DNA from: Terrabacter sp. Root85
Lineage (GTDB): Bacteria; Actinomycetota; Actinomycetes; Actinomycetales; Dermatophilaceae
DNA: 64,000 bases
Reading direction: 5' to 3'
NCBI RefSeq assembly: GCF_001429185.1
Contig: NZ_LMIW01000001.1
Span: 357,641-421,640, forward strand
Part shown: positions 844 through 63,924 of the stretch, one piece after another
Layout of the letters: every line of letters begins with the position of its first letter
Position numbering within the stretch: the first letter of the stretch is position 1
Notes under the pieces: generated by a model
Databases searched by the model: none
The model's input: the letters and a program-made list of their open reading frames with translations, nothing else
What the model was told of the DNA's origin: nothing
Program-made: the position numbers and the translations under genes

Positions 844-1629
844 ATGAGGTATGCCGCCCGGTGGCGTTCGCGCGTCGCGCTCGGCGTGCCGGCGGCGCTC
901 GCACTGCTCCTGCTCGTCGTGCCGCTCGTTGCGCTGCTGCTCCGCGCGGACTGGGCCCGCATCCCGTCCGACCTCGCGACCCCGACCGTCCTGCCGGCGC
1001 TGCGGCTCTCGCTGACGACGACGTCGGTCACGGCCGTCCTGTGCCTGCTGCTCGGCACTCCCCTGGCCTGGTTCCTCGCCCGCTCCGAGCACCGGGCCAC
1101 GAGCTGGGTCCGCGCGCTGCTCACCGTGCCCCTGGTCCTGCCCCCCGTCGTCGGTGGCGTCGCCCTGCTCATGACGTGGGGGCGCAACGGCCTCATCGGC
1201 CAGTACCTGACGCCCTTCGGCATCCAGATCCCGTTCACGACGGTGGCCGTCGTGCTCGCCGAGACCTTCGTGGCGATGCCCTACTACGTCCTTGCCGTCG
1301 AGGGTGCGATGCGCGGACTCGACCCCCGGCTCGAGTCCGTGGCCCGCACGCTCGGGGCGAGCGACGTGCGCTACCTGCGCACCGTGGGGATCCCGCTCGT
1401 GCTGCCCGGCATCGCGAGCGGACTCGCCCTCGCGTGGGCGCGGGCGCTCGGCGAGTTCGGCGCCACGATCACCTTCGCCGGCAACTTCCAGGGTCGCACC
1501 CAGACCCTGCCGCTGCTCGTCTACGTCGAGCTCGAGCGCGACCCGCAGGTGGCCGTCTCGATCAGCATCATGCTGCTCGCGGTCAGCGTGCTCGTGCTCG
1601 GCGTGCTGCGCGGACGTTGGCTCCGATGA
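844..1629 (+). CDS. modB: Molybdate ABC transporter permease ModB
   Basis: This is the inner-membrane permease of the molybdate transporter and is expected to work as a homodimer. The 261-residue protein has about six hydrophobic segments. Around residues 162-185 lies the cytoplasmic coupling helix with the EAA-type motif (VARTLGASDVRYLRTVGIPL), which docks on ModC. The next stretch, ARALGEFGATITFAGN, is characteristic of ModB. The ATG at 844 follows modA by 37 bases, and the TGA stop overlaps the modC start (ATGA), implying translational coupling. The gene contains one copy of the GTATGCCG octamer at its fourth codon. Confidence 0.93.
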   Translation: MRYAARWRSRVALGVPAALALLLLVVPLVALLLRADWARIPSDLATPTVLPALRLSLTTTSVTAVLCLLLGTPLAWFLARSEHRATSWVRALLTVPLVLPPVVGGVALLMTWGRNGLIGQYLTPFGIQIPFTTVAVVLAETFVAMPYYVLAVEGAMRGLDPRLESVARTLGASDVRYLRTVGIPLVLPGIASGLALAWARALGEFGATITFAGNFQGRTQTLPLLVYVELERDPQVAVSISIMLLAVSVLVLGVLRGRWLR

Positions 1630-2699
1630 GCGCCGCGAGCCGCGTCAGCGCCGGACTCGATGCGCGGATCCGCCTGTCCCGCGGCGAGATCGAGGTGGAC
1701 GTGGCCCTGACCGCCGAGCCCGGCCAGGTCATCGGCGTCCTCGGCCCCAACGGCGGCGGCAAGACCACCACGATCCTCGCACTCGCCGGCGTGCTGCACC
1801 TCGCCGAGGGCCACGTCCGGGTCGGCGGCCAGGTGTGGGACGACGGACGGCACCGCCTCGCCCCGGAGCAGCGCGCCGTCGGGCTCATGCTCGCCGACAG
1901 CCTGCTCTTCCCCCACCTGCGCGCCCTCGACAACGTCGCCTACGGCCCGCGCAGCCGTGGCGTCGGGCGGCACGAGGCGCGAGACCGCGCCCGCACCGAG
2001 CTCGAGCGCGTCGGCCTCTCCGACCGAGCCGCCTCGCGCCCCCGCGAGCTCTCGTCGGGACAGCAGGCGCGCGTGGCCCTCGCCCGCGCCCTGGCCACCG
2101 ACCCGGCGCTCCTCCTCCTCGACGAGCCGCTCGCGGCCCTCGACCCCGACACGCGCGCACGGACACGGAGCGACCTCGCAGCCCGCCTCACGGCATACGA
2201 CGGCGTCACGGTGCTCGTCACCCACGACCCGCTCGACGCGCTGACGCTCGCCGACCACCTCGTCTTCGTCGAGGACGGGCGGGTGACGCAGTTCGGCACG
2301 CCCGCCGAGGTGCTGAGCGAGCCACGGAGCGCCTACGTCGGCACCGTCGTCGGGCTCAACCTGTATGCCGCACAGGGCGATTCGCACGGTCACGTGCACA
2401 CCGCGGACGGTGGGCTGATCGTCACCACGAGCCCGACCGAAGGGGCCGTGTGGGCGACGGTCCCACCGAGCGCCGTGTCGCTGCACCGTCACCACCCGGA
2501 AGGGTCGCCGCGCAACGCCTGGCGGCTGCGCATCGCGTCCGTGACCATGCAGGGCCAGTCGGCCCGCATCGGTCTCGTGGGCGAGGTGCCGCTCACCGCC
2601 GAGGTGACGCTCGAGTCGGTCACGGCGCTGGGGCTGCAGGTCGGCCACGACGTCTGGGCGGCCGTCAAGGCCACCGAGGTGCGCACCTACCCGCGCTGA
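1626..2699 (+). CDS. modC: Molybdate ABC transporter ATP-binding protein ModC
   Basis: This ATPase drives molybdate import. The 357-residue protein has a Walker A motif (GPNGGGKTT, residues 40-48), an ABC signature (LSSGQQARVALARALA from about 142), Walker B (LLLLDEPLAALD, about 161-172), the H-switch (LVTHDPLDAL) and a C-terminal TOBE-like region (about 290-357) that usually senses the oxyanion. One oddity is visible: in the Q-loop, where relatives read about FQDARLFPHL, this protein reads LADSLLFPHL, so the conserved Gln appears to be Ala. The ATG overlaps the modB stop. The frame stays open upstream to 861, but those codons are a shadow of modB. Confidence 0.92.
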   Translation: MSAASRVSAGLDARIRLSRGEIEVDVALTAEPGQVIGVLGPNGGGKTTTILALAGVLHLAEGHVRVGGQVWDDGRHRLAPEQRAVGLMLADSLLFPHLRALDNVAYGPRSRGVGRHEARDRARTELERVGLSDRAASRPRELSSGQQARVALARALATDPALLLLDEPLAALDPDTRARTRSDLAARLTAYDGVTVLVTHDPLDALTLADHLVFVEDGRVTQFGTPAEVLSEPRSAYVGTVVGLNLYAAQGDSHGHVHTADGGLIVTTSPTEGAVWATVPPSAVSLHRHHPEGSPRNAWRLRIASVTMQGQSARIGLVGEVPLTAEVTLESVTALGLQVGHDVWAAVKATEVRTYPR

Positions 2700-2720
2700 G
2701 CCTGACCCTCCACCCTCTTT

Positions 2721-2795
2721 CACTCGAGTGGCCGCTGCGTCACTCTGGCCCCATGCCGGGGGTGGTACGCGTGGGGCCGGGAGGCCACTCGAGTG
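2721..2795. repeat. CACTCGAGTG inverted repeat pair between convergent genes
   Basis: Two arms, CACTCGAGTGGCC (2721-2733) and GGCCACTCGAGTG (2783-2795), form a perfect 13-bp inverted repeat about 49 bases apart; each arm also contains the 10-bp palindrome CACTCGAGTG. The pair lies between the modC stop and the end of the convergent MFS gene, and the second arm is read as part of the MFS C-terminus. A role as a bidirectional terminator is plausible, although no T-tract follows. Confidence 0.6.
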
Positions 2796-4056
2796 TGACG
2801 GACCGCACACTCGACGGTGTTGTGGTGCGGCGGACGCGGAGGAAGGCCAGCACGGACGGCAGCTGCACGACCGCCGCCACGAGGAGCGCGACGGGGATCG
2901 ACGTCCGCGTCGCGAGCGCCCCGAGCGGCGGCCCGCCCGCGACCTGGCCGATCGCGTTGGCCTGGCTGTTCATCGACAGCACCGTCGCCCGCGACGACGA
3001 CTCGAGGTTGCGGTTGAGCCATGTCGCCTGGATCGGCGCGCTGAAGGCGCTGCTCGCGTTGTGCAGCCACAGCGCCGCGAGGACGAGCCACAGGTTGCCG
3101 AGCAGCGCGACCCCGACGACGGCGACGACCTGCGCCGCGGCAGCGAGGGCGACCGGCAGTCCCGGGTTCTCCTCGACCACCCGGGCGGGGAGCCAGCGGC
3201 TGCTCGCACCGGACGCGAGCAGCGAGATGACCGACCCGATGAGCGCGAACACGGTGAACGCCACGGCGGGATCGCTGCCGAGGAACGACGGCATCGCGAA
3301 GGTGTCGAGCACACGCACCTGCCAGAGCCGGTCGAAGACCTCGCTCGACAGGCCGACGAGCACGCTGACGAGGAGGAAGACGCGCACGACCCGCCGCCCG
3401 CGAGCGACGGCGAGACCCGCGACGAACTGGTCCTTGAGGTGTCCGAAGGTCTCACGGTCACCGCGGGGCGTCGGGTGGAAGTGGCGCTCGGGCATCGCCA
3501 CCGCGAGGCCCACGGCGAGGAGCACGAGCGTCACGCCGGCCACGACGATCGGCACCCGGAGGGCGATGAGACCGAGACCGCCCGCGGCCAGCGTGCCGAG
3601 GAAGCCGAAGGCGAGGTCGAGCTGGGTCTCGCGCGTGAAGACAGGAGCGACGTGCTCCTCACCCACCTCGTCGGTGATCCACGCCTGCAGCGCACCGGAC
3701 GTGAAGGTGTAGCCGATGCCCCAGATGACGTTGCCGACGACCGCGGCGGCGAAGGTGGCGAGGACGCCCTCGACGGCGAAGCCGACCCCGACGAGGAAGA
3801 AGCCGATGATCACCGAGACGCGGCGGCTGTGCAGGTCGGCGACGATCCCCGTCGGCACCTCGAAGACGAAGCACGTCGCCTCGAGGACCGTGCCGACGAG
3901 GACCATCTGGAACGGGTCGAGGTCGACGACGCGGTACTGGAACACGAGGTTGAGGGTGAAGCACGCCGCGAAGGCGAAGGCCGCCACGGCCGTCAGCACG
4001 TAGAAGGTGGACGTCGCGTCCGCCTCGCGCAGCGGACGCCGCAGGAGCGTGAGCAC
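2740..4056 (-). CDS. MFS family transporter
   Basis: This is a 12-TM-type major facilitator permease of about 438 residues; the substrate is unknown, and drug or metabolite efflux is the usual guess. Hydrophobic segments begin at once (FYVLTAVAAFAFAACFTLNLVF), and VLEATCFVFEVPTGIVAD followed by a basic loop (LHSRRVSVII) matches the MFS TM2-TM3 signature region. The frame is open to 4179, but the extra N-terminus is Pro/Arg-rich and crosses an intergenic hairpin, so I prefer the GTG at 4056 just before the first basic and TM region; this start is uncertain. The C-terminal tail (TLEWPPG) is encoded by an intergenic palindrome repeat, suggesting that the repeat extended the gene. Confidence 0.8.
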   Translation of the reverse strand: MLTLLRRPLREADATSTFYVLTAVAAFAFAACFTLNLVFQYRVVDLDPFQMVLVGTVLEATCFVFEVPTGIVADLHSRRVSVIIGFFLVGVGFAVEGVLATFAAAVVGNVIWGIGYTFTSGALQAWITDEVGEEHVAPVFTRETQLDLAFGFLGTLAAGGLGLIALRVPIVVAGVTLVLLAVGLAVAMPERHFHPTPRGDRETFGHLKDQFVAGLAVARGRRVVRVFLLVSVLVGLSSEVFDRLWQVRVLDTFAMPSFLGSDPAVAFTVFALIGSVISLLASGASSRWLPARVVEENPGLPVALAAAAQVVAVVGVALLGNLWLVLAALWLHNASSAFSAPIQATWLNRNLESSSRATVLSMNSQANAIGQVAGGPPLGALATRTSIPVALLVAAVVQLPSVLAFLRVRRTTTPSSVRSVTLEWPPGPTRTTPGMGPE

Positions 4057-4106
4057 CCTTCGACGGTAGGGCCCACGCGGTGCCCGCGTCGCCGGGGTTT
4101 CCACGG

Positions 4107-4138
4107 CGTATGCCGCGGGGCCGGCCGGGCGGCATACG
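4107..4138. terminator. Hairpin built from two inverted GTATGCCG octamers
   Basis: Perfect 10-bp arms CGTATGCCGC (4107-4116) and GCGGCATACG (4129-4138) flank a 12-base GC loop. The hairpin lies about 94 bases downstream of the stop of the minus-strand M23 gene and upstream of the MFS start. There is no T-tract, as is common for actinobacterial terminators. The arms are copies of the octamer that is over-represented across the window. Confidence 0.6.
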
Positions 4139-4231
4139 TGGGCTCCGTCGGTGGTGGCTCCGCAGACGACCCGGGCCAACCGGGCACGGCGATGGCCGGG
4201 ACCTCAGCGGTCCCGGCCACCGGTCGGGCGC

Positions 4232-5128
4232 TCAGGGGAGCGCGAGGAAGGCGTTGCGCAGCAGGGGCTGGTTGTTGACGAAGCCGTAGCTCGCGCACGC
4301 GGCCGCGCTGCACGAGACGCGCGAGTCGACGCCGACCCGCATGTCGATGTGCAGGTGGGAGTCGGTGCAGAGGGCGTGGTACTTCGTGCCGACGTAGCCG
4401 ATGCGCTGGCCCTTGGTCACCGACTGCCCGACCGAGACCACCGGCGCGGGGCTGTCGTCCATGTGGGCGAAGTACCAGAGTCGGCCGAAGCCGTCCTTGA
4501 CCGTGACGGTGCTGCCGACGCTGTCGCAGCCGGTGCTGCCCGCGCGGATGTTCTTCGTCATGACCGTCCCGTTGACCGGCGAGAGGACCGAGGTGCCGGT
4601 CGCGGCGAAGATGTCGGCAGCGTTGTAGTCGTGGTGGCAGTTGACCTTGCTGTCCCAGCACCAGTGCGGCGTGCGGTTCTTGATGTCGGCCTGGTTGACC
4701 GAGAGCGGGAAGCGCAGCGACGCGTCGCCGATGATCTGCGAGGCGTTGTTGTTCTTGACGTTGGCGTTGAGGTCGACCTGGGCGCCGTTGGGCACCTCGT
4801 CGTAGACGCCGCCGAAGTCGCTGTTGTAGAAGACGAAGACCGACGTCCCGGTGCGGTTCCAGACCGACGCCGTGTTGTTCTTGACGCACTGGCCCTGGCC
4901 CGAGCCGCTGCTGACGAACTCGATGCACCCCGAGCCGGTGCCGTAGTCGCGCTGCGAGTTGACGAGGTCGACGCGCGACCCGGCGTTGCCGCTGTTGTAG
5001 TAGAGACAGAACTCGCCGGACTCGCACACCCCGTTGCGGGCCGTGGCGTTGGCGTTCGGCGCGGTGCCGACGAGGGCGGCTGCGACGCCGAGTACGGCGA
5101 CCAGTCCGACTGCGAATCTCCTGAACAT
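4232..5128 (-). CDS. Secreted I36-like / M23 peptidase fusion protein
   Basis: This is a 298-residue exported protein with a signal peptide (about residues 1-28, ending ANA). Residues about 31-130 (NGVCESGEFCLYYNSG...) resemble the peptidase inhibitor I36 / beta-gamma-crystallin-like fold common in Streptomyces. Residues about 160-265 form an M23 (LytM/peptidoglycan endopeptidase-like) domain with HHDYNAADIFA and HLHID providing the likely zinc ligands (His165 or 166, Asp172, His258/His260) and a further His in WYFAHMDD. Six or more Cys in the mature part suggest disulfides. It probably acts on cell-wall peptides outside the cell; whether the I36-like part inhibits, binds wall or binds calcium is unknown. 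It is divergent from the acyl-CoA dehydrogenase gene. Confidence 0.82.
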   Translation of the reverse strand: MFRRFAVGLVAVLGVAAALVGTAPNANATARNGVCESGEFCLYYNSGNAGSRVDLVNSQRDYGTGSGCIEFVSSGSGQGQCVKNNTASVWNRTGTSVFVFYNSDFGGVYDEVPNGAQVDLNANVKNNNASQIIGDASLRFPLSVNQADIKNRTPHWCWDSKVNCHHDYNAADIFAATGTSVLSPVNGTVMTKNIRAGSTGCDSVGSTVTVKDGFGRLWYFAHMDDSPAPVVSVGQSVTKGQRIGYVGTKYHALCTDSHLHIDMRVGVDSRVSCSAAACASYGFVNNQPLLRNAFLALP

Positions 5129-5230
5129 CTCGTGTCCTTCCGAGCGGTGAGGTGGTGCCCTGTACGAGCCACTGAACCGACGCGGCCTAACAAGCGGCTA
5201 ACCCCTCGACCACCGGGTCCGTCTCACACT

Positions 5231-5259
5231 TTGGACGAAATGCTCGGACGTCCTAGTAT
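5231..5259 (+). promoter_or_regulatory. Candidate sigma-70-type promoter of the acyl-CoA dehydrogenase gene
   Basis: TTGGAC (5231-5236), a 17-base spacer and TAGTAT (5254-5259) make a strong match to the vegetative consensus in otherwise very GC-rich DNA. The predicted transcription start, about 7 bases past the -10 box, coincides with the ATG at 5266, so the mRNA is probably leaderless. No Shine-Dalgarno sequence precedes that ATG. Confidence 0.6.
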
Positions 5260-5265
5260 CGATCC

Positions 5266-6411
5266 ATGCCAGCGACGAGGCTGATGCCGACCGACGAAGC
5301 CACCGACCTGATCGAGCTGACGCGAGAGATCTGCCGCAAGGACCTCGCGCCGAAGGTCGACGACGCCGAACGCGCCCGCACCTTTCCCGAGGAGACCTTC
5401 CGCACCCTGGGCCGGGCGGGCCTGCTGTCGCTGCCCTACCCCGAGGAGTTCGGTGGGGCCGACCAGCCCTACGAGGTCTATCTCCAGGTCGTCGAGGAGA
5501 TCGCGTCCGTCTGGATGAGCGTGGCCGTCGGCGTCAGCGTGCACAGCCTCACGGCCTACCCCGTCGCGACCTTCGGCACCCGCGAGCAGCAGGAGGCCCT
5601 GCTGCCCGGGATGCTCTCGGGCGAGCAGCTCGGTGCCTACTGCCTCTCCGAGCCCCTGGCCGGCTCCGACATCGCCTCGATGACGACGCGGGCGACCCGC
5701 ACCGACGACGGCTGGTCGCTCAAGGGCACCAAGGCGTGGATCTCGCACGCCGGGCACGCCGACTACTACACGACCTTCGCCCGCACGTCCGACGACGGCG
5801 GCAAGGGCCTGTCGACCTTCATCGTCCCCGGTGACGCCGCAGGCCTGACCTTCGCCGAGCCCGAGCGCAAGATGGGCCTGCACTGCGACCCCGTCGCCCA
5901 GGTCATGTTCGACGGCGTCCCCGTCGACGGCGCGCGGCTGGTCGGCCGCGAGGGCGACGGCATGAAGATGGCCCTGTCGGCCCTCGACGCGGGACGCCTC
6001 GGCATCGCCGCTGCCGCCACGGGCCTGGCCCAGGCCGCCCTCGACGCCGCCGCCGACTACGCGACCGAGCGCCAGCAGTTCGGCCGACGCATCGCCGACT
6101 TCCAGGGACTCGCCTTCCTCATCGCCGACATGGAGGCCGCGGTCACCTCGGCCCGTGCCACCTACCTCCACGCGGCCCGCCTCAAGGACGCCGGCCGCGG
6201 CTTCGGCAAGGAGGCCGCCGTCGCCAAGCTCATCGCCACCGACGCGGCCATGAAGGTGACCACCGACGCCGTCCAGGTGCTCGGCGGCGCCGGCTACACC
6301 GAGGACTTCCCGCTCGAGCGCTACATGCGCGAGGCGAAGGTGACCCAGATCTTCGAGGGCACCAACCAGATCCAGCGCCTCGTCATCTCGCGCCAGCTCC
6401 TCGCCCGTTGA
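5266..6411 (+). CDS. Acyl-CoA dehydrogenase
   Basis: This FAD-dependent acyl-CoA dehydrogenase carries out the first oxidation of beta-oxidation or branched-chain amino-acid breakdown in the cytoplasm. Its 381 residues match the family's usual 380-390. It shows the FAD/substrate motif YCLSEPLAGSDIASM and the C-terminal signature VLGGAGYTEDFPLERYMREA followed by IFEGTNQIQRL, where the Glu of FEGT is the usual catalytic base of the short/medium-chain and isovaleryl branches. The ATG at 5266 fits a leaderless transcript from the promoter just upstream; an in-frame ATG at 5284 is a less likely start. The SDR gene 50 bases downstream probably shares the operon. Chain-length specificity cannot be read by eye. 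Confidence 0.93.
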   Translation: MPATRLMPTDEATDLIELTREICRKDLAPKVDDAERARTFPEETFRTLGRAGLLSLPYPEEFGGADQPYEVYLQVVEEIASVWMSVAVGVSVHSLTAYPVATFGTREQQEALLPGMLSGEQLGAYCLSEPLAGSDIASMTTRATRTDDGWSLKGTKAWISHAGHADYYTTFARTSDDGGKGLSTFIVPGDAAGLTFAEPERKMGLHCDPVAQVMFDGVPVDGARLVGREGDGMKMALSALDAGRLGIAAAATGLAQAALDAAADYATERQQFGRRIADFQGLAFLIADMEAAVTSARATYLHAARLKDAGRGFGKEAAVAKLIATDAAMKVTTDAVQVLGGAGYTEDFPLERYMREAKVTQIFEGTNQIQRLVISRQLLAR

Positions 6412-6462: not shown

Positions 6463-7239
6463 ATGCAGCTGAACTCGTCCACCGTCGCCGTCGTCACCGG
6501 TGGTGGCTCCGGCCTCGGCGGTGCCACCGCTCGCCGCCTCGTCGCCGACGGCGCCACCGTCGTCATCATCGACCTCGAGGGCTCCACGGCCCCGGCGCTC
6601 GTCGACGAGCTCAACGCGCAGCGCGAAGGCAGCGCCGTCTTCGTCGCGGCCGACGTGCGCGACGAGGCCCAGGTGCAGGCCGCGATCGACCGGGCCACCG
6701 CGCTCGGCGAGCTGCGCATCGCCGTCAACTGTGCGGGGGTGGCGACACCGGGCCGCGTCGTCGGGCGGGGTGGGCCGCTCTCGCTCGACACGTTCAAGAC
6801 GGTCATCGACATCAACCTTGTCGGCTCGTTCAACGTGCTCCGTCTCGCGGCAGCGGCGATGCTCGGCAACGAGGCCGTCGACGGCGACCGAGGCGTCATC
6901 GTCAACACGGCGAGCATCGCCGCCTTCGACGGCCAGATCGGCCAGGCTGCGTACGCCGCGAGCAAGGGCGGCATCGTCGGCCTCACCCTGTCGGCGGCTC
7001 GAGACCTCGCGGACAAGGCGATCCGCGTCATGACCGTCGCTCCCGGCACCTTCGAGACGCCGATGCTCGCCGGCCTGCCGGGCGAGGTCAAGGAGGTCCT
7101 CGAGAAGCAGGTGCCGCACCCGTCGCGCCTCGGCCGCCCCGAGGAGTACGCCAACCTCGTGCGCCACATCGTCGACAACCCGATGCTCAACGGTGAGGTC
7201 ATCCGCCTCGACGGCGCCCTGCGTATGCCGCCGCGCTGA
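6463..7239 (+). CDS. Short-chain 3-hydroxyacyl-CoA dehydrogenase (HSD10-like SDR)
   Basis: This NAD-dependent short-chain dehydrogenase of 258 residues most resembles type 2 3-hydroxyacyl-CoA dehydrogenase. The nucleotide motif is TGGGSGLG near residue 14. Asn sits in NCAG, Ser in [14 protein letters not shown], and the catalytic pair in YAASKGG. The C-terminal [13 protein letters not shown] and [14 protein letters not shown] are typical of the HSD10 group. Coupled to the preceding acyl-CoA dehydrogenase, it would oxidise the 3-hydroxyacyl-CoA formed after hydration; no hydratase or thiolase is in view. A purine-rich stretch (cgaaagg) precedes the ATG. The last codons contain a GTATGCCG copy. 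Confidence 0.9.
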
Positions 7240-9254: not shown

Positions 9255-9947
9255 TCAGGCCGGCCCGGGCCCGAGGGCGTGGGTCCCCGACCGGCGCAGG
9301 GCCTGCGGGTCGACGACGGTGACGCGGCCACGGTCGAGGACCACGGCCCCGGCCGACTCGAGGCGACGCAGGACGCGGTTGGCCGTCGGCCGGGTGACCC
9401 CCGCCAGCTCGGCCAGCTCGGACTGGTTGAGGTGCACCGTCACCGGGGAGCGTGACGGTGCGGCAACGGCATACACCCCACACAAGGACACGAGGCTGCG
9501 CACCACACGGAGCTCGGCGGGCGTGTGCAAGGCCTCCATGAGCGCGTCGGTCAGTCGGCTGACCCGGGCTGCGAGGAGGCGCACGAGGAGACGGTTGACC
9601 TCAGGGTGGCGGTCGCACAGCCGCTCGAAGTCCGCGAAGGACAGCGACAGGGTCACGGTCCGCTCGACCGCCTCGATCGTCGCCGTCCGCCGGCCGGCGC
9701 GCACGATCATCGCGAGCTCGCCGAAGGCCTGGCCCGGGCCCATGACGGCGTAGGCCAGCCGGTCCCCCTGCTCCGACGACCGGCGGGCGACGACCCGGCC
9801 CTCGACGACGAAGTGCACGGTGTCGGCGGCGTCCCCCTCGTGGAAGACCACGTCGCCCGCGTCGTACGTGTGGCGGTGCATCGACGCCACGACCTCCCGA
9901 CGCTCGGCCGGCGCGAGGTCGGACAGCAGCCCGAGGTCGAGGGTCAC
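9255..9947 (-). CDS. Crp/Fnr family transcriptional regulator
   Basis: This is a cytoplasmic DNA-binding regulator of about 230 residues. The N-terminal half is a cyclic-nucleotide-binding beta-roll (VVFHEGDAADTVHFVVEGRV; phosphate-binding cassette FGELAMIVRAGRRTATIEA). A long dimer helix follows, then a Crp-type winged helix with the recognition segment LAELAGVTRPTANRVLRRLE. There is no Cys cluster, so it is not an FNR-type iron-sulfur sensor. I chose the GTG at 9947 (VTLDLGLLSDLAP) because the upstream extension is Pro/Arg-rich. The ligand is not shown; a class III cyclase is encoded 2 kb away, which makes cAMP a reasonable guess. A 174-base gap separates it from the divergent small gene. 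Confidence 0.88.
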   Translation of the reverse strand: MTLDLGLLSDLAPAERREVVASMHRHTYDAGDVVFHEGDAADTVHFVVEGRVVARRSSEQGDRLAYAVMGPGQAFGELAMIVRAGRRTATIEAVERTVTLSLSFADFERLCDRHPEVNRLLVRLLAARVSRLTDALMEALHTPAELRVVRSLVSLCGVYAVAAPSRSPVTVHLNQSELAELAGVTRPTANRVLRRLESAGAVVLDRGRVTVVDPQALRRSGTHALGPGPA

Positions 9948-10323: not shown

Positions 10324-11988
10324 TCACCGCAGACCCTCGCCGAGGCGCCCCCGCAGGGGCACGGGGAGCGGCGCCAGCGACGCACGCGCCTCGGCGAGCA
10401 ACGCCGACTCCGCCCGGTCGAACACATCCTGGGCGGAGTCTGGCGTGTCCCCGATGGCGGTCATGCCGACGCGGCCGCACTCGGTGATCGAGCTGATCAT
10501 GTGGAAGACGACGCCCGTCTGGCGCGACTGGTCGAAGTGGAGGCCGGCGCGCGCCACGAGGTCGAAGAGGTCGTCGACACCCATGCCCCGGAGCGTCTCG
10601 TCCTCGAGGTGGTCGGTCGCCACGAGGTGGCGTTCGGCGCCGGACGGGGTGACGAAGCGCCCCTCCTCGTGGACATAGGTGCCGTCGGTCAGGAACTGCA
10701 GCGTGAGGAACGGGTGCGTCGTACCGCCCCTGCGCAGGTTGATCTCGATGGCGTGGGTCTGCCATTGCTTGCCCTGGCGGACGACGACGAAGTCGAGGGC
10801 GAACCGCCCGAGCACCCCTTTGTCCGCGAGGATGCGACCCACCTTCTCCGCCTCCCTCGTGATCGTCGTCGCGTAGGCCGGGTCAGCCGGGAACCGCGCA
10901 CCGAGGTACATCTGGCCCGTCGGGCCACCGAGGACCTGGTCGTGGGTCGAGAGGATCTCCAGCTCCCCCAGGGGCGTCACGCGCAGCTGCACGCTCGGAC
11001 TGCGCACCTCGTCACCGACGATGCGCTCCTCGACGATGCCACCGCGCTCGTCCAGCCGCCCGAGGTAGGCACCGGTCTCGATGCGTGCGTCCTCGAGCTG
11101 CATGCCCAGCACCCGTTCGGTGACGACCGCACGCAGCGCGTCTGTCTCGCCGCCCGGATCCGCGGCCGCCGCGGCCGCCTCGGCCGCCTCGGCCGCCGCG
11201 TCCACGGCGGTCAGGTCGACGAGGGCGTTGCCGGAGCCCGAGACACCCTCGTCGAGCTTGACCATCGCCCACTGCGCGCCGGGCCGCGACGCGTGCAGCT
11301 CGAGCACGGCGTCGACGACGTCGTCGACGGAGTGGACGTCCTCGGCGCCGAAGGGATGGTCGACGCCGGCCTCGGCGAAGATCCGTCGGCAGCCGGTCTT
11401 GGTGCCCAGCGGATAGAGGCGCGGGTCCGCGGCATACATGGGAATGCCGAGCATCAGCGCCAGGTCACGCTCGCGCGTCGTGCTCGTGTACGGGACGATG
11501 TGCGACCTTGCCGGGTCCGTCACGAGGGAGGCGATGCGGGACAGGACCCGGGGGCGGGCCAGCAGCTTGTCGGTCAGAGGTCGAGGGGAGGAGTCACCCA
11601 CCGAAACCAGGTCGAGTCGGGCCCGGGCATGGCTCGGGATGACCCCGGGGAGCAGCGACAGGTAGTACTCGATGATGTGCTCGTTGATCGGCATCGACGT
11701 CACGTAGACCATCCGGAGGCGCGGCTGACGCAGCAGCAGCAGCATGAAGAGGAAACGCTCCTCCATGGCCTGGTTCATGGCGCCCGCCGACTGCGTGAGG
11801 TTGTCGACGCTCATCGACGGCACGACGACCACCGACTCCCGTGGGTCGGCTTGACCGAAGCGGCGCCAGACCTCGGGCAGGGCCTGCTGCAGATCGTCGA
11901 ACAGTCGGCCGCGCGCCGCCTCGTCGAGCGCGTCGAGGCCACCGCCGTCCACCGTCGGGACGATCGGGGCCTGGGTCGTCGCATTCAT
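10324..11988 (-). CDS. PGM1-like pre-ATP-grasp peptide/amine ligase
   Basis: This is a 554-residue protein of the type annotated as PGM1-related peptide ligase (PGM1 is the ATP-grasp ligase of pheganomycin synthesis). The N-terminal pre-ATP-grasp part includes VVVPSMSVDNL, FLFMLLLLRQPRLRMVYVTS and RPLTDKLLARPRVLSRI. A central segment with GTKTGCRRIFAEAGVDHPFG, WAMVKLDEGVSGSGNALVDL and FALDFVVVRQGKQWQTHAIEINLR supplies the nucleotide and Mg sites of an ATP-grasp enzyme. It probably forms an amide between a carboxylate and an amine; the substrates are unknown. The ATG overlaps the stop of the cyclase gene (ATGA), making it the last gene of a four-gene signalling operon. An Ala-rich insertion (about residues 260-275) is unusual. 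Confidence 0.75.
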   Translation of the reverse strand: MNATTQAPIVPTVDGGGLDALDEAARGRLFDDLQQALPEVWRRFGQADPRESVVVVPSMSVDNLTQSAGAMNQAMEERFLFMLLLLRQPRLRMVYVTSMPINEHIIEYYLSLLPGVIPSHARARLDLVSVGDSSPRPLTDKLLARPRVLSRIASLVTDPARSHIVPYTSTTRERDLALMLGIPMYAADPRLYPLGTKTGCRRIFAEAGVDHPFGAEDVHSVDDVVDAVLELHASRPGAQWAMVKLDEGVSGSGNALVDLTAVDAAAEAAEAAAAAADPGGETDALRAVVTERVLGMQLEDARIETGAYLGRLDERGGIVEERIVGDEVRSPSVQLRVTPLGELEILSTHDQVLGGPTGQMYLGARFPADPAYATTITREAEKVGRILADKGVLGRFALDFVVVRQGKQWQTHAIEINLRRGGTTHPFLTLQFLTDGTYVHEEGRFVTPSGAERHLVATDHLEDETLRGMGVDDLFDLVARAGLHFDQSRQTGVVFHMISSITECGRVGMTAIGDTPDSAQDVFDRAESALLAEARASLAPLPVPLRGRLGEGLR

Positions 11989-13145
11989 GGGTCGTCCTCC
12001 CGGTCGGTGGTGCCGATGACCTCGTGGACCTCGAGGGGCCGCGAGATGCCGCGCAGCTCCACCGGCCCGAGCGAGCGCGTCTCGAAGCGCTCGTCGATCC
12101 CGGCACGCACGCGGGGGCTGATGAGGATCTGACGGGCGGCGGCGGCCGCGCAGAGGCGGGCCGCGACGTTGGTGACGGTCCCGATCGCCGCGTAGTCCCA
12201 GCGTCCTTCGAAGCCGACCCGACCGAGCGTCGCGTAGCCCTGCGCGATGCCGACCCCGAAGCCGAGCTGGTGCCCCTGCCGGGACCACCCGGACGCGAGG
12301 TCGTCGACGCGGTCGCGCATGTCGAGCGCCATCCGCACGGCCCGCTCGGGTGCGTCCGGACACGGTGGGGGGTCGTTGAAGAACACCATGAGCCCGTCGC
12401 CGGCGAAGTGCTCCAACGTGCCCTCGTAGGCGAAGACGAGCTCCCCGAGGGCGCCGTGGTACTCGCGCAGCACTGACATCGTCTCCTCCGGCTCGGCGGT
12501 CTCCGCGAACGCGGTGAAACCCCGGAGGTCGGTGAAGACGGTGGTGATGTCGCGTCGGTGGCTCTCGAGGAACGACTCGTCGCCGGACTCGACGATGAGG
12601 CCCGCGATCTGCGGAGACAGGAACCGGCGCAGGCGGCCCAGCCGGTCGAGGTCGTCCACCTGCTCGGCCACCCGGGTCTCGAGCTCGGCGTTCCAGCGCT
12701 CGAGCGCGACGGTCTGCTCGAGCACCGTGTCGTGCAGTCGTTTGACGCGCGCCAGCGACCGGACCCGCGCCACGAGCTCGGCCTGGTCGAACGGCTTGGT
12801 GACGAAGTCGTCGGCGCCCACCTCGAGGGCGCGCAGTCGCTGCTGGGTCCCGCTCGCCGTCACCATGACGACCGGCAGCATCGCCGTGCGGGGGTCGGCC
12901 TTGATGCGCTCGCACGTCTCGTAGCCGTCCATGACCGGCATGAGCACGTCGAGCAGGACGACGTCGACCTCGCACTCGGCGAGCGCCTCGAGGGCAGCCT
13001 GCCCCGACGCCTCCGAGCGCACGACGAAGCCCCGCGGCTCGAGGACGGCGTGCATGAGCTTGCGGTTCTGCTCGAGGTCGTCGACGACGAGGACCCGCAC
13101 GCCCGTGAGCGGCCGGACCCTCGCATCGCCGTCGAGGGGCGTCAC
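11985..13145 (-). CDS. Response regulator fused to class III adenylate/guanylate cyclase
   Basis: This is a 386-residue cytoplasmic signalling enzyme. Residues about 17-135 are a receiver domain (VRVLVVDDLEQN; phospho-acceptor Asp66 in LLDVLMPVMDG; Lys117 in TKPFD). A coiled-coil-like linker (about 136-175) joins it to a class III nucleotide cyclase domain (about 190-350) with both metal-binding Asp residues (Asp206 in FTDLRGF, Asp250 in AGDGLMVFF) and the NVAARL motif with its catalytic Asn and Arg, so it looks active. Phosphorylation by the adjacent hybrid kinase would be expected to control cAMP (or cGMP) output. The GTG start overlaps the stop of the preceding regulator gene (GTGA). Confidence 0.92.
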   Translation of the reverse strand: MTPLDGDARVRPLTGVRVLVVDDLEQNRKLMHAVLEPRGFVVRSEASGQAALEALAECEVDVVLLDVLMPVMDGYETCERIKADPRTAMLPVVMVTASGTQQRLRALEVGADDFVTKPFDQAELVARVRSLARVKRLHDTVLEQTVALERWNAELETRVAEQVDDLDRLGRLRRFLSPQIAGLIVESGDESFLESHRRDITTVFTDLRGFTAFAETAEPEETMSVLREYHGALGELVFAYEGTLEHFAGDGLMVFFNDPPPCPDAPERAVRMALDMRDRVDDLASGWSRQGHQLGFGVGIAQGYATLGRVGFEGRWDYAAIGTVTNVAARLCAAAAARQILISPRVRAGIDERFETRSLGPVELRGISRPLEVHEVIGTTDREDDP

Positions 13146-46551: not shown

Positions 46552-46611
46552 GGACGTATGCCGTCCGGCTGGATCGAGGTGGTTCGTCGCCGCCCGGCCC
46601 GGCGGGACACC

Positions 46612-50738: not shown

Positions 50739-50863
50739 CCGCCGAAGTCTATCGGCGCGTCGCCGCGCACCCGACCACGCACGTACGAGCACGTATGCCG
50801 TCCGGCCGGCCCGGCCGGCCCACGATCGCGACCTCGCCGGCGCCCCGCGGCTACGCTCGGGCC

Positions 50864-51637: not shown

Positions 51638-51671
51638 CACCCGGCATACGCCCGCTTGCGTATGCCGGGTG
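51638..51671. terminator. Bidirectional hairpin formed by two inverted GTATGCCG octamers
   Basis: A perfect 14-bp stem runs from CACCCGGCATACGC (51638-51651) to GCGTATGCCGGGTG (51658-51671) with a CCGCTT loop. It fills the gap between the stops of two convergent genes. The arms contain the octamer that is over-represented across the window, an arrangement like uptake-sequence terminators in Pasteurellaceae and Neisseriaceae. Confidence 0.8.
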
Positions 51672-55035: not shown

Positions 55036-55743
55036 TCAGGAGGCGCCGAGCAGGCGGGCCGCGGCCTCGAGGTCGCTCGGCGTCGTGACCTTGAGGGCCC
55101 GGGGGTCACCCTCGACGACGAGGACCCGCCCCCCCAGCCGCTCGACGAGCCCGGCGTCGTCGGTGGCGTCGCTCGACCCGGCGTGGGCGCGCTCGAGGAC
55201 GTCACGGCGGAAGCCCTGGGGCGTCTGCACCGCGCGCAGGCCCGAGCGGTCGGGGGTGGCGACGACGAACCCGTCGCCGTCGACCTGCTTGATCGTGTCG
55301 ACGACCGCGGTGCCGGGCACGACCGCCACGGCGCCTGCCGCGACGGCGGCGACCACCCGGTCGAAGACGTCGACCGGCGTCAGGCACCGGGCGGCGTCGT
55401 GGACGAGGACGATGTCGACGTCCCCGCCGAGCACCCGCAGACCGGCCGCGACGGAGTCGCCCCGCTCGGCCCCGCCCGGCACGACGGTCACCGGCGTCGC
55501 GGACCGGAGCTCACGGCATACGCCCTCGGCGAGCTCGTCGGCCTGCGCCCGGTGGGTGTCGGGGACGACGAGGACGACCTGGGCCACCGCGGCGCACGAC
55601 AGGACCCCCCGCAGGGCGTGCCCGAGCAGGGGCAGCCCGGCGAGGGGCACGAACGCCTTGGGCACACGTGCCCCCAGACGCGAGCCGGAGCCGGCCGCGA
55701 CGACGATGACGCCGACGCGACCGGCTCCGGTCTCGTTGTTCAG
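55036..55743 (-). CDS. ispD: 2-C-methyl-D-erythritol 4-phosphate cytidylyltransferase
   Basis: This enzyme transfers CMP to methylerythritol phosphate in the MEP pathway. The 235-residue protein shows VGVIVVAAGSGSRLGARVPKAFVPLAG (CTP site), VLVHDAARCLTP and LRAVQTPQGFRRDVL. There is no ATG, GTG or TTG at a sensible place after the carD stop. The best start is a CTG at 55743 with AGGG 7 bases before it; an alternative is a read-through or frameshift with carD, since the frame is open well into carD. It is followed by an SDR gene instead of directly by ispF. Confidence 0.9.
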   Translation of the reverse strand: MNNETGAGRVGVIVVAAGSGSRLGARVPKAFVPLAGLPLLGHALRGVLSCAAVAQVVLVVPDTHRAQADELAEGVCRELRSATPVTVVPGGAERGDSVAAGLRVLGGDVDIVLVHDAARCLTPVDVFDRVVAAVAAGAVAVVPGTAVVDTIKQVDGDGFVVATPDRSGLRAVQTPQGFRRDVLERAHAGSSDATDDAGLVERLGGRVLVVEGDPRALKVTTPSDLEAAARLLGAS

Positions 55744-57893: not shown

Positions 57894-59231
57894 CTAGGCG
57901 TTGACGGACGGGGTCGGGCCGGCGCCGCGGGACGGCTCGGCCTCAGGCGCGGCGCCGCGCCCGGCGTCGACCTCGGCCTCGGTCTGGGTCTCGGTCTGGG
58001 TCTCGGTCTGGGTCTCGGAGGGGACGTCGGGCTCGGACGGCGGGAGGGCGGCATACGTCGTCGGATCGGCGGGCGCGATCGCGGCGGAGGCGTTGGCGGC
58101 GGGCAGCTCGATGGTGAACGTCGACCCCCGACCCGGCTCGGACCACACCGACACGTTGCCGCCGTGGTTGTCGGCGACGTGCTTGACGATGGCCAGGCCC
58201 AGCCCGGTGCCGCCGGTGGCCCGCGACCGGGCCGTGTCGACGCGGTAGAAGCGCTCGAAGATGCGCTGCTGCTCGTCGGGCGCGATGCCGAGTCCCTGGT
58301 CGGTGACGGAGACGTCGATGACACCCGGGCGACCTCGACGCACCATGACGCCGACACGGGTGCCGCCGTCGGAGTAGGCGATGGCGTTGCCGACGAGGTT
58401 GCTGATGGCCGTGGTCACGAGCTCGGCGTCACCCCACACCTCACAGCCCTCGTCGATGGCCGTCACGATCTCGATGCGGTGCTCGTCGGCGATGAGTCGG
58501 CTGCGGTCGGCGGCGTCTCGCGCGCACGCACCGACGTCGATGACCGTCGGGTCCTTGATGACGTCGGCGCCCTGGAGGCGCGAGAGCTCGACGATCTCCT
58601 TGACGAGTCGCGTCAACCGCTCGGACTCGACGCTGATCCGCTTCGCGAAGCGCGCGACCGCCTCGGGGTCGTCGTGCGCGTCGAGCACGGCCTCGGCGAG
58701 CAGCGAGATGCCGCCGACCGGGGTCTTGAGCTCGTGGCTGACGTTGGCGAGGAAGTCGCGGCGGATCTCCTCGACGCGGGCCGCCTTGGAGCGGTCCTCG
58801 ACGAGGAGGAGCACGTGGTCGGCGCCGAGGGGCGCGACCCGGGCGGCGACGACGAGACGGCCGTCGCCGATGCCCTTCTGCAGGGTCAGCTCGGCCTCGC
58901 GGATGACACCGTCGCGGCGCACGGCGCGGGCGAGGTGGAGCAGCTCCGGGTGGACGAGCTCCTGGCCGCGCACCAGGCCCTGGGCGACGGCGGCGGGTGA
59001 GTTGTTGACGACCCGGTCGGACGAGTCGACGAGGATGCCGCTCGAGCGGAGCACGGCGATGACCTCACCGACGCCGGGGGGCAGCGGCGGAGCGGGCGGC
59101 GAGGGCGTCTCGGCCGCCGTCGAGCGGTCCGACAGGCGCACGGCGACCATCGCCACGCCGCCCAGGGCGAGGCCGGCGATGCCACCGAGCGTTGCCGCTG
59201 TCGTCGGGTCCACGACACTCAGCGTACGCAT
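57894..59231 (-). CDS. senX3: Phosphate-sensing histidine kinase SenX3
   Basis: This is a 445-residue membrane kinase with an N-terminal transmembrane segment (LGGIAGLALGGVAMVAV), a PAS-like domain (about residues 55-160), HisKA with the phospho-acceptor His in NVSHELKTPVGGISLL, and HATPase boxes (ISNLVGNAIAYSDGG, DQGLGIAPDEQ, GTGLGLAIVKHVADNHGG). The C-terminal tail is a low-complexity stretch with TQTE repeats encoded by 12-base tandem repeats near 57981-58018, an oddity that may vary in length. It works with RegX3 and PhoU in the phosphate response. The ATG at 59231 is chosen; a GTG slightly downstream is possible. Confidence 0.93.
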   Translation of the reverse strand: MRTLSVVDPTTAATLGGIAGLALGGVAMVAVRLSDRSTAAETPSPPAPPLPPGVGEVIAVLRSSGILVDSSDRVVNNSPAAVAQGLVRGQELVHPELLHLARAVRRDGVIREAELTLQKGIGDGRLVVAARVAPLGADHVLLLVEDRSKAARVEEIRRDFLANVSHELKTPVGGISLLAEAVLDAHDDPEAVARFAKRISVESERLTRLVKEIVELSRLQGADVIKDPTVIDVGACARDAADRSRLIADEHRIEIVTAIDEGCEVWGDAELVTTAISNLVGNAIAYSDGGTRVGVMVRRGRPGVIDVSVTDQGLGIAPDEQQRIFERFYRVDTARSRATGGTGLGLAIVKHVADNHGGNVSVWSEPGRGSTFTIELPAANASAAIAPADPTTYAALPPSEPDVPSETQTETQTETQTEAEVDAGRGAAPEAEPSRGAGPTPSVNA

Positions 59232-59319: not shown

Positions 59320-59491
59320 CCTGCCAACCTCTGCACCAGCGGGGGACGTGACACCGCGAACGTATGCCGTCCCGCGCGCGTCGCGAGTGGCAGGCTGGCT
59401 CCCGACACGGCGCCGCCGCACGTCACACCGGTGCAGACGGCAACGCACGACCACGCACGACCACGCACGACCGGCAACTGACAGGAAGACC

Positions 59492-61246: not shown

Positions 61247-61268
61247 GGCAGGCAGAGGCTTGGGCCGG

Positions 61269-62012: not shown

Positions 62013-62035
62013 GGCGCCAGCCTAGCGACGGCCGA

Positions 62036-62578
62036 TCACGCGTCCGAGCCGTCGTCCAGCAGGTGACGGAAGGCGTCGAGGTTGCGCGTCGACTCGCCGC
62101 GTGAGACCCGCCAGGCCCACTCCTTGCGCATCGAGCCGAGGAAGCCGAGCGCGAGCAGCTCGTTGAAGACGTCGTCGCTCGCCGACAGGACGATCCCGAA
62201 GAGCTGGTCGAGGTGCTCGGGCTCCACCGCGACCGTCGGCACCTCGCCACGCAGGTAGACGTCGCCGTCGGTGTCGACGGCGTAGGCGACGCCCTGCAAC
62301 CGGAGGTTCTTGCGCAGGAGGGTGCGGTAGAACGCCTCGTGGTTCTCGTCCGGGTTGCGGATGACGAAGGCGCTGACGCTCGTCGTCCGGTCGCGCAGGA
62401 GCACCGACACGACAGTCTTGAGCTTCTTCTCGCCGGGCAGGGTGACGACGTACTCCCGCGGGCGCCCACCGAGCTCCCACTCGAGCCCGACGGAGTCGAG
62501 GTATGCCGTGAGGCGGGACTCGGCGGCCGCGCCCGGTGAGTCGTCGGCCGGGGTGGTCTCCTGCGGCTCGGCGCTCAC
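62036..62578 (-). CDS. YbjN domain protein
   Basis: This is a 180-residue cytoplasmic protein of the YbjN family, which has a secretion-chaperone-like fold. [47 protein letters not shown] and [16 protein letters not shown] are the matching strands. The function is unknown. Its GTG start overlaps the stop of mshA, as in other actinobacteria where the pair is conserved (Rv0486-Rv0487 in Mycobacterium tuberculosis). Confidence 0.9.
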
Positions 62579-63924
62579 GGGATCACCGCCGTCGGGACGC
62601 CGACGAGGCTCTGGCCCTCGTCGATGGGCGACTCGTTGCCGCCGGCGGCCCGTTCACGGATCGCCTGCCGGTAGACCTCGAGGAGCCGGTCGGTGGTCGC
62701 TCCCCAGCCGAACTGCGCCGCGTGCGCGACCGCCGCGGAGCCCAGCGCGAGACGGCGGTCGTCGTCGCGCAGCAGGGACTCGACGGCGTCGGTCCAGTCG
62801 GGGGTCGCGTGACCGTCGACGAGGACGCCGGCGTCTCCGACGGCGGTCGGGAGGCCGCCGACGTGCGCCGCGACAACGGGGGTGCCACAGGCCTGCGCCT
62901 CGATGGCGACGAGACCGAAGGACTCCGAGTGGCTCGGCACGAGGACGAGGTCGGCGGCGCGATACCACTGCGCCAGCACCTGGCGGTCGACCGGTGACAC
63001 GAAGCGGACGACGTCGTCGATGCCGAGCGAGCGGGCCAGCTCCTCGAGCTCGTGTGGCCGGGTGAGGCCGCTGCCGCTGGGGCCGCCGAGGACGGCGACC
63101 GTGAGGCGCTCGCGGCGGGAGGGGTCGCGGCGGAGCAGCTCGCCGGCGACCCGGAGCAGCACGTCGGGTGCCTTGAGCGGCTGGATGCGCCCCACGAACA
63201 GGAGCAGCTGACCCTCGACGGGCAGGCCCAGGGCGCGCCGGGCCTCGCTGCGGTCCCCGGGGGTGAAGGTCGTCAGGTCGACGCCCGGGGGGACGACGGA
63301 CACCTTGGCCGGCGGGGCGGCATACAACTCGATGAGCTCGCGGGCCTCGTCCTCGGTGTTGGCGATGAGGCGGTCGGCCGCCTCGACGACCTGGACCTCA
63401 CCGATCTCGCGGCCGCGGGGCTCCGGCGGGTCGCCCTCGGCGAGGTGGAGGTTCTTGACGCGCGCCATCGTGTGCATCGTGTGGACGAGCGCGACGCGCC
63501 AGCGGTCGGCCGCGAGCCAGCCGACCTGACCGGAGAGCCAGTAGTGCGAGTGGACGAGGTCGTAGTGGTCCTCGGGGACCGAGAGCCCGGCCTGCATGAT
63601 GCCGGCCGAGAAGGCGCAGAGCTGGCCCGGCAGGTCCTCCTTGGCGAGGCCCTCGTAGGGGCCCGCGGTCACGTGACGCACGCGCACGCCCGGCACGAGG
63701 TCGGACTCGATCGGCGTCGCGCCGGTGGTGCGGCGGGTGAAGATGTCGACCTCGATCCCGCGCGCGGCGAGCTCCTTCGCGGTCTCGGCGACGTAGACGT
63801 TGAGGCCCCCGGCGTCACCCGTACCGGGCTGCTCGAGGGGCGAGGTGTGCACGCTGATCATCGCCACCCGTCTCGGATCGGCCGCCATCGGCATCCCTTC
63901 GTCCTGCGCGTCGTTCGTCGTCAT
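62575..63924 (-). CDS. mshA: D-inositol-3-phosphate glycosyltransferase MshA
   Basis: This GT4 enzyme performs the first committed step of mycothiol synthesis, joining N-acetylglucosamine from UDP-GlcNAc to inositol-3-phosphate. The 449-residue protein has the acceptor region [38 protein letters not shown] and [12 protein letters not shown]. The donor domain carries [17 protein letters not shown] and the catalytic [22 protein letters not shown]. The ATG at 63924 has GAGGAAG upstream and is preferred over 63945. The stop overlaps the ybjN start (GTGA). Confidence 0.95.

Follow-up and report, generated by a model that had tools for sequence, protein, structure and literature searches.

The window analysed here is a stretch of 64,000 bases from Terrabacter that carries the octamer GTATGCCG, or its reverse complement CGGCATAC, 30 times on both strands (16 +, 14 −), in line with a preliminary description that had counted about 30. 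The outermost copies start at 849 and end at 63325. By our own gene calls, which leave 9.7% of the window non-coding, 11 of the 30 are intergenic; the description had likewise given about 11, in excess of the intergenic share.

On the plus strand, coding copies occur at 849–856 (gene 844–1629 +, in the TAT GCC frame), 2363–2370 (gene 1626–2699 +), 7223–7230 (close to the 3′ end of gene 6463–7239 +), 17702–17709 (gene 17292–19490 +) and 25526–25533 (gene 24321–25637 +), and antisense to minus-strand genes at 14733–14740 (gene 13531–16200), 31893–31900 (gene 31131–33023), 37429–37436 (gene 37306–39192) and 62501–62508 (gene 62036–62578). Coding copies on the minus strand lie within minus-strand genes at 9467–9474 (gene 9255–9947), 11430–11437 (gene 10324–11988), 13453–13460 (gene 13142–13534), 32333–32340 (gene 31131–33023), 42907–42914 (gene 41828–43150), 50324–50331 (gene 49233–50738), 55514–55521 (gene 55036–55665, an uncertain call), 58049–58056 (gene 57894–59231) and 63318–63325 (gene 62575–63924), and antisense to the plus-strand gene 1626–2699 at 2191–2198.

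Three intergenic pairs face each other, as had been described. The copies at 4108–4115 (+) and 4130–4137 (−), 22 bases apart from start to start, form a hairpin; that at 36141–36148 (−), 19 bases past a stop codon, is paired with 36259–36266 (+), 24 bases from the stop codon of a facing gene; and 51642–51649 (−) and 51660–51667 (+) are the two halves of a hairpin pair in a convergent gap. The other intergenic copies reside in a convergent gap 4 bases past a stop codon (46556–46563, +), in tandem gaps (29858–29865, −; 48170–48177, +) and in divergent gaps (50793–50800, +; 59362–59369, +).

Abundance and strictness of the word

In 100 dinucleotide-preserving shuffles of the window, GTATGCCG occurred 0.72 times on average and at most 3 times, placing the chance expectation at about 0.7 copies instead of the roughly two first supposed. 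Ranked by z-score, it comes first among 8-mers both in the window (order-2 model) and in a 421,640-base stretch (order-3 model), where 194 copies were found against 5–10 expected under Markov orders 1–3. Orders 4, 5 and 6 predict 52, 132 and 188 copies in the same stretch, absorbing the signal because the sub-words sit largely within the word. The preliminary description had allowed that a genome-wide count might fall near the Markov expectation; it lies far above the low-order models, and the order 6 suggested there is uninformative. The 4.87-Mb Terrabacter genome holds 2,300 copies (1,168 + 1,132 by strand) and 237 of the reversed word taken as control (112 + 125). The excess amounts to some 20- to 40-fold over low-order Markov models and about 10-fold over the word's own reversal.

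Its one-mismatch neighbours, 24 in number, together occur 271 times in 421 kb, with about 297 expected (order 2), and show no excess; GTATGCCG is a strict word, with all eight bases needed. Every GTATGCC in the window is followed by G (30/30), as first noted, and half of the TAT/ATA triplets (30/60) lie in the word, where nearly all TAT triplets had been placed. Flanking bases are preferentially G+C-rich, and TC follows directly in 62 of the 194 copies, giving an extended word, GTATGCCGTC.

Placement in genes, gaps and strands

Within the 421 kb, 124 of the 194 copies lie inside genes and 70 outside genes or across gene edges, the latter a 54-fold excess over the 1.3 expected. Density is 1.56/kb in non-coding and 0.33/kb in coding DNA, five times higher between genes. 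It reaches 3.7 per kb in convergent gaps, 1.5 in tandem and 0.6 in divergent ones, and 25 of 37 tandem-gap copies are closer to the 3′ end, with 11 closer to the 5′ end; intergenic copies are mostly near gene 3′ ends. The related word GGATGCCG, a dialect described below, is also denser in non-coding than in coding DNA (2.8 versus 0.7/kb in genome G178; 2.6 versus 1.5/kb in G042).

A codon-pair or mutational bias without function could draw on the TAT-GCC (Tyr-Ala) frame, which accounts for 71 of the 124 coding copies. Against it stand the non-coding excess and the choice of codons: of 2,417 Tyr codons 158 are TAT, whereas TAT supplies 71 of the 95 that stand in a word-making context; 9 of 16 ATA codons lie within the reverse word; and use of TAT, GCA and ATA, all rare codons, is specific to places where the word results. 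Coding copies occupy all six frame/strand settings, so that the outcome raised beforehand, a Tyr-Ala pair effect with no intergenic excess, did not occur. G+C is similar in word-less family members, in many of the stretches sampled, which argues against mutational bias. On the intergenic excess and rare-codon use we reject the codon-pair explanation, and a functionless bias is to us the least probable reading of all. The initial choice of an uptake- or HIP1-type word, made in preference to a codon effect, is supported by the density contrast, the function being what we infer. GTATGCCG is concentrated where its cost is least: in gaps between genes, chiefly towards 3′ ends, and in codon pairs that are tolerated.

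Intergenic copies cluster by stop codons, as would a transcription terminator or a 3′-end element employing a single word by chance. Among the 18 neighbouring pairs less than 150 bases apart, 13 are +/− and four −/+. In all 13 facing pairs that lie within 62 bases, the two words form the stem of a fold. For a terminator, however, a stem is required but its exact sequence is not; the 13 folded pairs in the 421 kb are followed by no T run, and most copies are unpaired. Termination as the prime function is rejected because copies are mostly single and inside genes, and we hold such an element to be very improbable.

Another possibility is a polar word of the Chi or KOPS kind, which a recombinase or a DNA translocase would recognise while travelling along the chromosome. 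The Chi word of E. coli, too, has eight bases and is distributed genome-wide, but words of this type are strand-biased, and neither a preference for gene 3′ ends nor facing pairs would be expected of them. The strand check that had been proposed gave no bias: the ratio is 93:101 in 421 kb, 10:15 at most in any 60-kb block and 101,176:101,512 over 108 word-rich genomes. We reject a polar word for want of strand bias, ranking it a shade below the terminator in probability. The spacing of copies in the 421 kb is more even than in 2,000 of 2,000 placements weighted by gene/intergenic density.

Distribution and dialects

In the suggested comparison with related genera, GTATGCCG reaches at least 100 copies per Mb in 108 of 186 family genomes and 31 of 53 genera, with dialects elsewhere in the family, and in 0 of 386 sampled class members outside it. 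The dialects GTACGCCG and GGATGCCG, each one base off GTATGCCG, follow lineages in the family, as read by genus label, at similar density: GTACGCCG attains a minimum of 200/Mb and of 5-fold its control in 11 of the 186 genomes, and GGATGCCG at least 400/Mb in seven. Two genomes, G044 and G045, contain two words each. In Nocardioides, GTACGCCG occurs 254 times over 361 kb (18 named loci), and it exceeds its reversed control 8- to 32-fold in 19 of 19 genomes of the class genus g104, probably Nocardioides.

Within Terrabacter, window copies were kept in 6/7, 7/7, 6/7 and 5/5 cases, compared with fractions of 0.55, 0.75, 0.54 and 0.53 for composition-matched 8-mers, and in 8/12 (versus 0.56) in one further pair, in a comparison with small n that reuses the same sites between pairs; G047 kept 5/6 (versus 0.46). 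A site-by-site dialect switch at conserved positions found little support, word positions being mostly unshared at about 80% identity. Among the top ten outcomes per pair, 0 of 10 aligned copies were kept or turned into GTACGCCG from G094 to G092; from G012 to G010, 2 of 4 turned into GTACGCCG and 1 of 4 was kept.

Uptake machinery and comparison with known systems

Predicted genes include those of an uptake machine of the Micrococcus type (ComEA/ComEC, tad pili): ComEA (SLBB + HHH) adjoins ComEC, and genome G000 has three tad clusters, Flp- and TadE-like genes being found as well. The com/tad-type search advised at the outset thus found its genes, in word-less relatives as well. ComEC is present in 179 of 184 family genomes, word-carrying and word-less alike, and ComEA/ComEC at 17 of 17 loci, including five that are word-less and one that has CGAAGGGG; both are rejected as discriminating genes because word-less genomes also have them. 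The second tad cluster, rejected as a discriminating feature since it occurs irrespective of the word, has TadA–C at 21 of 21 loci, Flp at 20 and TadE at 19, one of the 21 loci ending at 4.5 kb and TadE not being detected at that of G087. A PF00437 match of 224 bits at C10:320059, inside L243, is the ATPase of the third G000 tad cluster and not PilB; the word-rich genomes G057, G087, G133, G173 and G013 gave no PF00437 match above 210 bits, and the third cluster is rejected as a requirement for the word. Two regex screens for pilin genes gave almost no matches and missed the known G000 pilins too. With ComEA/ComEC and a tad cluster in every word-less genome examined, nothing tested tracks the word. 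Prophage-like regions (12-kb cores at 20 phage-capsid-gene loci) hold 62 copies of GTATGCCG against 123 expected, about half the genome rate. We know of no transformation of Terrabacter.

We propose, with a probability of about 60%, that GTATGCCG is a DNA-uptake-type (DUS-like) self-recognition word in Gram-positive actinobacteria. Because a putative protein at the cell surface, which might be a minor pilin of the tad/Flp type, would prefer word-bearing DNA, DNA released by kin would more often be taken up through ComEA/ComEC and recombined, and copies made by mutation would consequently accumulate through biased exchange to the point of filling the genome. If the receptor changed, a new word would be favoured, to which the genome would slowly be rewritten as a new dialect. 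A replication-guidance motif is less favoured than an uptake-type word in view of the dialects across the family, the symmetry between strands and the even spacing. Counted against the uptake reading are that no gene examined tracks the word, that Terrabacter is not known to be transformed, and two features unlike reported uptake words, the lack of a one-mismatch excess and the 3′-end preference of intergenic copies. The half rate in prophage-like regions, where a rate near zero would be looked for, may also count against it.

The main rival of the uptake reading is a methylation or repair mark resembling cyanobacterial HIP1. A DNA methyltransferase, or a repair or nicking system, would act on the word, biased repair would ratchet it up, and a change in enzyme specificity would change the dialect. 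The need for all eight bases would suit an enzyme site, and half-density words in prophage-like regions would fit a force acting on resident DNA. However, HIP1 is palindromic and GTATGCCG asymmetric, orphan methyltransferases seldom have so strict a non-palindromic octamer as their site, and two words per genome with one-base dialects between sister genera come closer to DUS. HIP1 is, like GTATGCCG, a dense and group-specific octamer; in the accessible portion of PMC4390886 it is tied to orphan methyltransferases, a biased-repair model is proposed and exceptional strains have alternative words, so that dialects alone do not decide. We consider such a mark unlikely.

A broader form of the uptake reading, which we advance tentatively and at less than even odds, is an old self-recognition code for genetic exchange common to Actinobacteria, in which GTACGCCG, also at high density in Nocardioides, was the root word and was rewritten to GTATGCCG, GGATGCCG and other dialects in Dermatophilaceae, and dialects set which species exchange DNA via a putative tad-type-pilus receptor. 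If the word does serve uptake, Gram-positive soil bacteria would have an independent, dialect-bearing uptake word, and sequence-checked DNA exchange would have evolved again, perhaps with a different pilus. The 186 genomes, with at least three words, would offer a large natural experiment for a receptor search by co-variation; in Pasteurellaceae, coevolution of orthogroups with the USS has already been analysed (PMC12616744). The word would also indicate, among actinobacteria yet to be studied, the ones open to transformation and the DNA to use, a practical gain given how hard many are to engineer.

Uptake words are known in two Gram-negative families, Pasteurellaceae and Neisseriaceae, according to the available part of PMC12616744. 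Among the matches listed in a search that most subscription journals and preprints lay outside, there was no earlier report for Gram-positives or actinobacteria, and none on bare GTATGCCG that concerned genome words by its title or abstract start; the class would therefore be new in Gram-positives. The Flp/tad competence system of Micrococcus luteus likewise combines comEA/comEC with tad clusters bearing Flp- and TadE-like genes. Transformation there requires comEC and tad genes (PMC4322843, accessible text), and no uptake word is mentioned, "uptake sequence" occurring 0 times in PMC4322843 and PMC12849477.

The USS of Pasteurellaceae is unrelated to GTATGCCG in sequence. It has nine bases and AT-rich flanks, whereas the flanks of GTATGCCG are G+C-rich. 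Both are abundant and strand-symmetric, with dialects (two in USS) and a non-coding excess, as far as the excerpts of PMC1939737 and PMC12616744 go. For known uptake words, the same portion of PMC1939737 gives no orientation bias, a non-coding excess, over-represented mutated forms, no bias to sites downstream of genes, which the 3′-end preference of GTATGCCG exceeds, and about 10% in inverted repeats. An excess of mutated forms is not strictly required of an uptake word. The 13 facing pairs here, 26 of 194 copies, are DUS-like in this respect.

GTATGCCG differs from the DUS of Neisseriaceae in its phylum and Gram-positive host, its length (8 versus 10–12 bases), the absence of the DUS core CTG, the lack of an identified ComP or a one-mismatch excess, and the leaning of intergenic copies to 3′ ends. 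By coincidence, ATGCCGTC is common to the extended word and the meningococcal AT-DUS (GCCGTCTGAA, PMC6370729, preceded by the AT of the dialect name). DUS, whose receptor is ComP, are also short and non-palindromic and occur in thousands of copies family-wide. The available text of PMC3630211 gives closely related lineage dialects and one genome holding two dialects in near-equal numbers. Overall, most features of GTATGCCG match DUS and USS and argue against Chi, KOPS, codon bias and terminators.

Abundance and strictness of the word

GTATGCCG is the top 8-mer of the window by z-score, with 30 copies against 0.78 expected under an order-2 Markov model. The excess reported in the preliminary description was borne out, with 100 shuffles giving 0.72 copies on both strands and a maximum of 3. 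As described there, GTATGCC is always followed by G (30/30 heptamers in the window), and 11 of the 30 copies are intergenic by our own gene calls, within 9.7% of the sequence. Only half of the TAT/ATA triplets (30/60) sit in the word, so the earlier "nearly all" was too strong. Across the genome (4,865,335 bases, 15 contigs), we counted 1,168 + 1,132 copies, a mean of one per 2.1 kb, against 112 + 125 for the backwards word.

In a 421,640-base test stretch, comprising the window and 357,640 bases upstream, there are 194 copies, with 5.2, 6.1 and 10.4 expected from Markov orders 1-3. Orders 4-6 expect 52, 132 and 188 and absorb the signal, because many sub-words come from GTATGCCG itself. The 24 neighbours at one mismatch sum to 271 over this stretch, no more than the roughly 297 expected under order 2, and therefore all eight bases count; among them, GGATGCCG exceeds its expectation (93 versus 43). 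Weaker preferences were observed in the flanks, mainly C ahead of the word, T or C and then C behind it, and G+C-rich positions some 11-16 bases from its start. These are also present in non-coding copies and so do not reflect codon structure alone. TC follows 62 of the 194 copies, compared with 10% after GCCG generally. The extended word GTATGCCGTC (e.g. window positions 46556-46565) has ATGCCGTC in common with the meningococcal AT-DUS, probably by coincidence.

Placement, codon use and turnover

A simple gene caller of our own placed 391 genes on the 421,640 bases (89% coding). Of the 194 copies, 124 are genic, 65 are intergenic and 5 straddle a gene boundary; density is 1.56/kb in non-genic versus 0.33/kb in genic DNA, and the 70 non-coding copies compare with 1.3 expected from composition. 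Density is 3.7/kb in convergent gaps, 1.5/kb in tandem gaps and 0.6/kb in divergent gaps; of the 37 tandem-gap copies, 25 are closer to the 3' end of the preceding gene and 11 to a 5' end. Neighbouring pairs at most 150 bases apart (n=18) are arranged +/- in 13 cases, -/+ in four and +/+ in one. On folding the 14 pairs within 62 bases, 13 facing pairs gave a word-with-word stem, and no T run follows any of the 14. A terminator reading does not account for the single copies within genes. The strands share the copies 93:101, the most uneven 60-kb block being 10:15, and a polar, strand-oriented word does not match the pattern. Spacing is more even than in 2,000 of 2,000 random placements weighted for gene/intergenic density (coefficient of variation 0.72 versus 0.94; variance/mean in 5-kb bins 0.51 versus 0.88); empty 5-kb bins are less striking (5 versus 9.1, with 6% of simulations equally low).

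Inside genes, the word is read mainly as Tyr-Ala (71 copies) or Ala-Tyr (33). TAT, a rare codon, makes up 158 of 2,417 Tyr codons overall, but 71 of 95 at sites where using it yields the word. GCA precedes TAC in 33 cases with xCG ahead of it and in 5 without, and 9 of all 16 ATA codons fall within the reverse word.

The window GpmA is 96-97% identical to GpmA of Terrabacter aerolatus, Terrabacter sp. Ter38 and T. tumescens, which suggests that the organism belongs to Terrabacter or lies very close to it. Between Terrabacter species, the window's aligned copies in the gpmA region were kept in 6/7, 7/7, 6/7 and 5/5 cases, with composition-matched 8-mers kept at 0.55, 0.75, 0.54 and 0.53; one other pair kept just 8/12 copies versus 0.56. 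Across dialects, at about 80% identity, word positions are mostly unshared. Any one copy is thus dispensable, and others arise at fresh positions; this would be expected if some genome-wide process favoured the word, and not of local elements. A HIP1-like methylation or repair drive, which finds a parallel in the alternative HIP words on record in PMC4390886, is the main rival to an uptake word, though less probable.

Distribution and dialects

All nine genomes of the window's genus are rich in GTATGCCG. Within its family, probably Dermatophilaceae (186 genomes, 53 genera), at least 100 copies per Mb occur in 108 genomes from 31 genera, 50-100 in nine and fewer than 50 in 69; word-poor members occur within word-rich genera (e.g. 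genomes G016, G092, G122). Read by eye, 0 of 386 class genomes outside the family reach 100 per Mb (maximum about 51, G216). Named loci with the word belong to Terrabacter, Intrasporangium, Arsenicicoccus, Metallococcus and Flexivirga endophytica; F. meconopsidis loci are weak (5 versus 6 for the reversed word), a 9-kb Mobilicoccus fragment lacks the word, and 0-1 copies were counted in Nocardioides loci. In Flexivirga loci L048 and L063 (41 kb), GTATGACG (23) outnumbers GTATGCCG (19) and GTATGGCG (18), which may be a dialect whose sixth base is free.

Counted genome-wide, GGATGCCG reaches at least 400/Mb in 7/186 family genomes (G025, G026, G042-G045, G178), and GTACGCCG at least 200/Mb and 5-fold the reversed control in 11/186 (G010, G011, G012, G020-G023, G092, G096-G098). 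G044 and G045 bear two words together, GTATGCCG at about 380-400/Mb and GGATGCCG at about 690-700/Mb; G152 and G155 give a weaker double signal, and G042 and G043 hold residual GTATGCCG (about 98/Mb, 9- to 10-fold control). In samples, densities outside versus inside genes are 2.8 versus 0.7/kb (G178) and 2.6 versus 1.5 (G042) for GGATGCCG, and merely 0.9 versus 0.7/kb for GTACGCCG (G097/G098).

By the cut-offs used (GTATGCCG <50/Mb; GGATGCCG and GTACGCCG <5-fold control), 52 family genomes have none of the three. Other words stand out in several of 20 word-poor genomes (20 kb sampled from each). CGAAGGGGG is in 13- to 17-fold excess in two genera without GTATGCCG, at 37 versus 2.2 in G064 (L104, L123-L126) and 32 versus 2.4 in G101 (L116, L134-L136; 80-100 kb samples). 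CGAAGGGG occurs between versus within genes at 3.2 versus 0.5/kb in G101 and 0.9 versus 0.5/kb in G064. In the word-poor genus of G091, CGATGCGG is about 6-fold in excess (95 versus 16 in 100 kb; L115, L143-L146), with no higher density between genes. No comparable word was seen in 80-100 kb samples of G169, G104, G009, G046 and G019. In G184, one 20-kb stretch (L106) contains about 15 copies of overlapping 9-mers from a CCGCACCTACTCGAC-like string, which three further stretches almost lack; this is probably an array of local repeats and not a word spread across the genome.

Outside the family, GTACGCCG and GTACGACG are over-represented in Nocardioides: 18 of 20 named loci (including L007, L012-L015; L006 and L026 left out) have 254 copies of GTACGCCG in 361 kb, alongside 170 of GTACGACG. 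Read by eye, GTACGCCG is 8- to 32-fold the reversed control in 19/19 genomes of class genus g104 and >10-fold in several class genomes of other families (e.g. G186, G194, G218, G219, G281), others not. As an ordinary codon pair, TAC-GCC gives GTACGCCG a high coding background, and its Nocardioides density is lower in non-coding (0.47/kb) than in coding DNA (0.74/kb); the wider claim is therefore weaker than that for GTATGCCG. In this non-coding DNA, GTACGCCG lies above most neighbour words, not all, and GTACGACG is higher (0.60/kb). Sanguibacter locus L056 has 13 copies of GAGTTCGGC versus 0.6 expected in 20 kb, and 11 of 14 copies of GAGTTCGG there are non-coding.

Candidate machinery and known uptake words

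In the window's genome, ComEA (SLBB + HHH_3 domains) adjoins ComEC, and by our reading of the translations Flp-like pilins are encoded in two of its three tad clusters. Transformation of M. luteus requires comEC and tad genes, and the authors propose likewise for other actinobacteria (PMC4322843). ComEC is present in 179/184 family genomes. No receptor for GTATGCCG was found among ComEA, ComEC and the second tad cluster, all of which also occur in word-less genomes (ComEA/ComEC in 17/17 loci; TadA-C of the second cluster in 21/21). In word-carrying genomes, 62 words were counted in the 12-kb cores surrounding 20 phage-capsid genes, where genome density predicts 123, and 121 in the full stretches, where it predicts 205, a clear but partial depletion. 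Word content varies widely among these loci, some of which may be old or domesticated.

The literature matches listed, a set with most subscription journals and preprints outside its scope, include no report of GTATGCCG or any actinobacterial uptake word, and the text of PMC12849477 has no uptake-word or family terms. PMC3630211 describes uptake words with copy numbers in the thousands (943 to 5,918 per genome), lineage dialects and one genome bearing two dialects; PMC1939737 describes no orientation bias and an excess in non-coding DNA. GTATGCCG resembles these words in such features. It differs from the words of PMC1939737 in that its mutated forms show no excess and gene 3' ends are preferred. 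The pattern matches much of the uptake-word description, and we infer from the word a probable role in DNA uptake.
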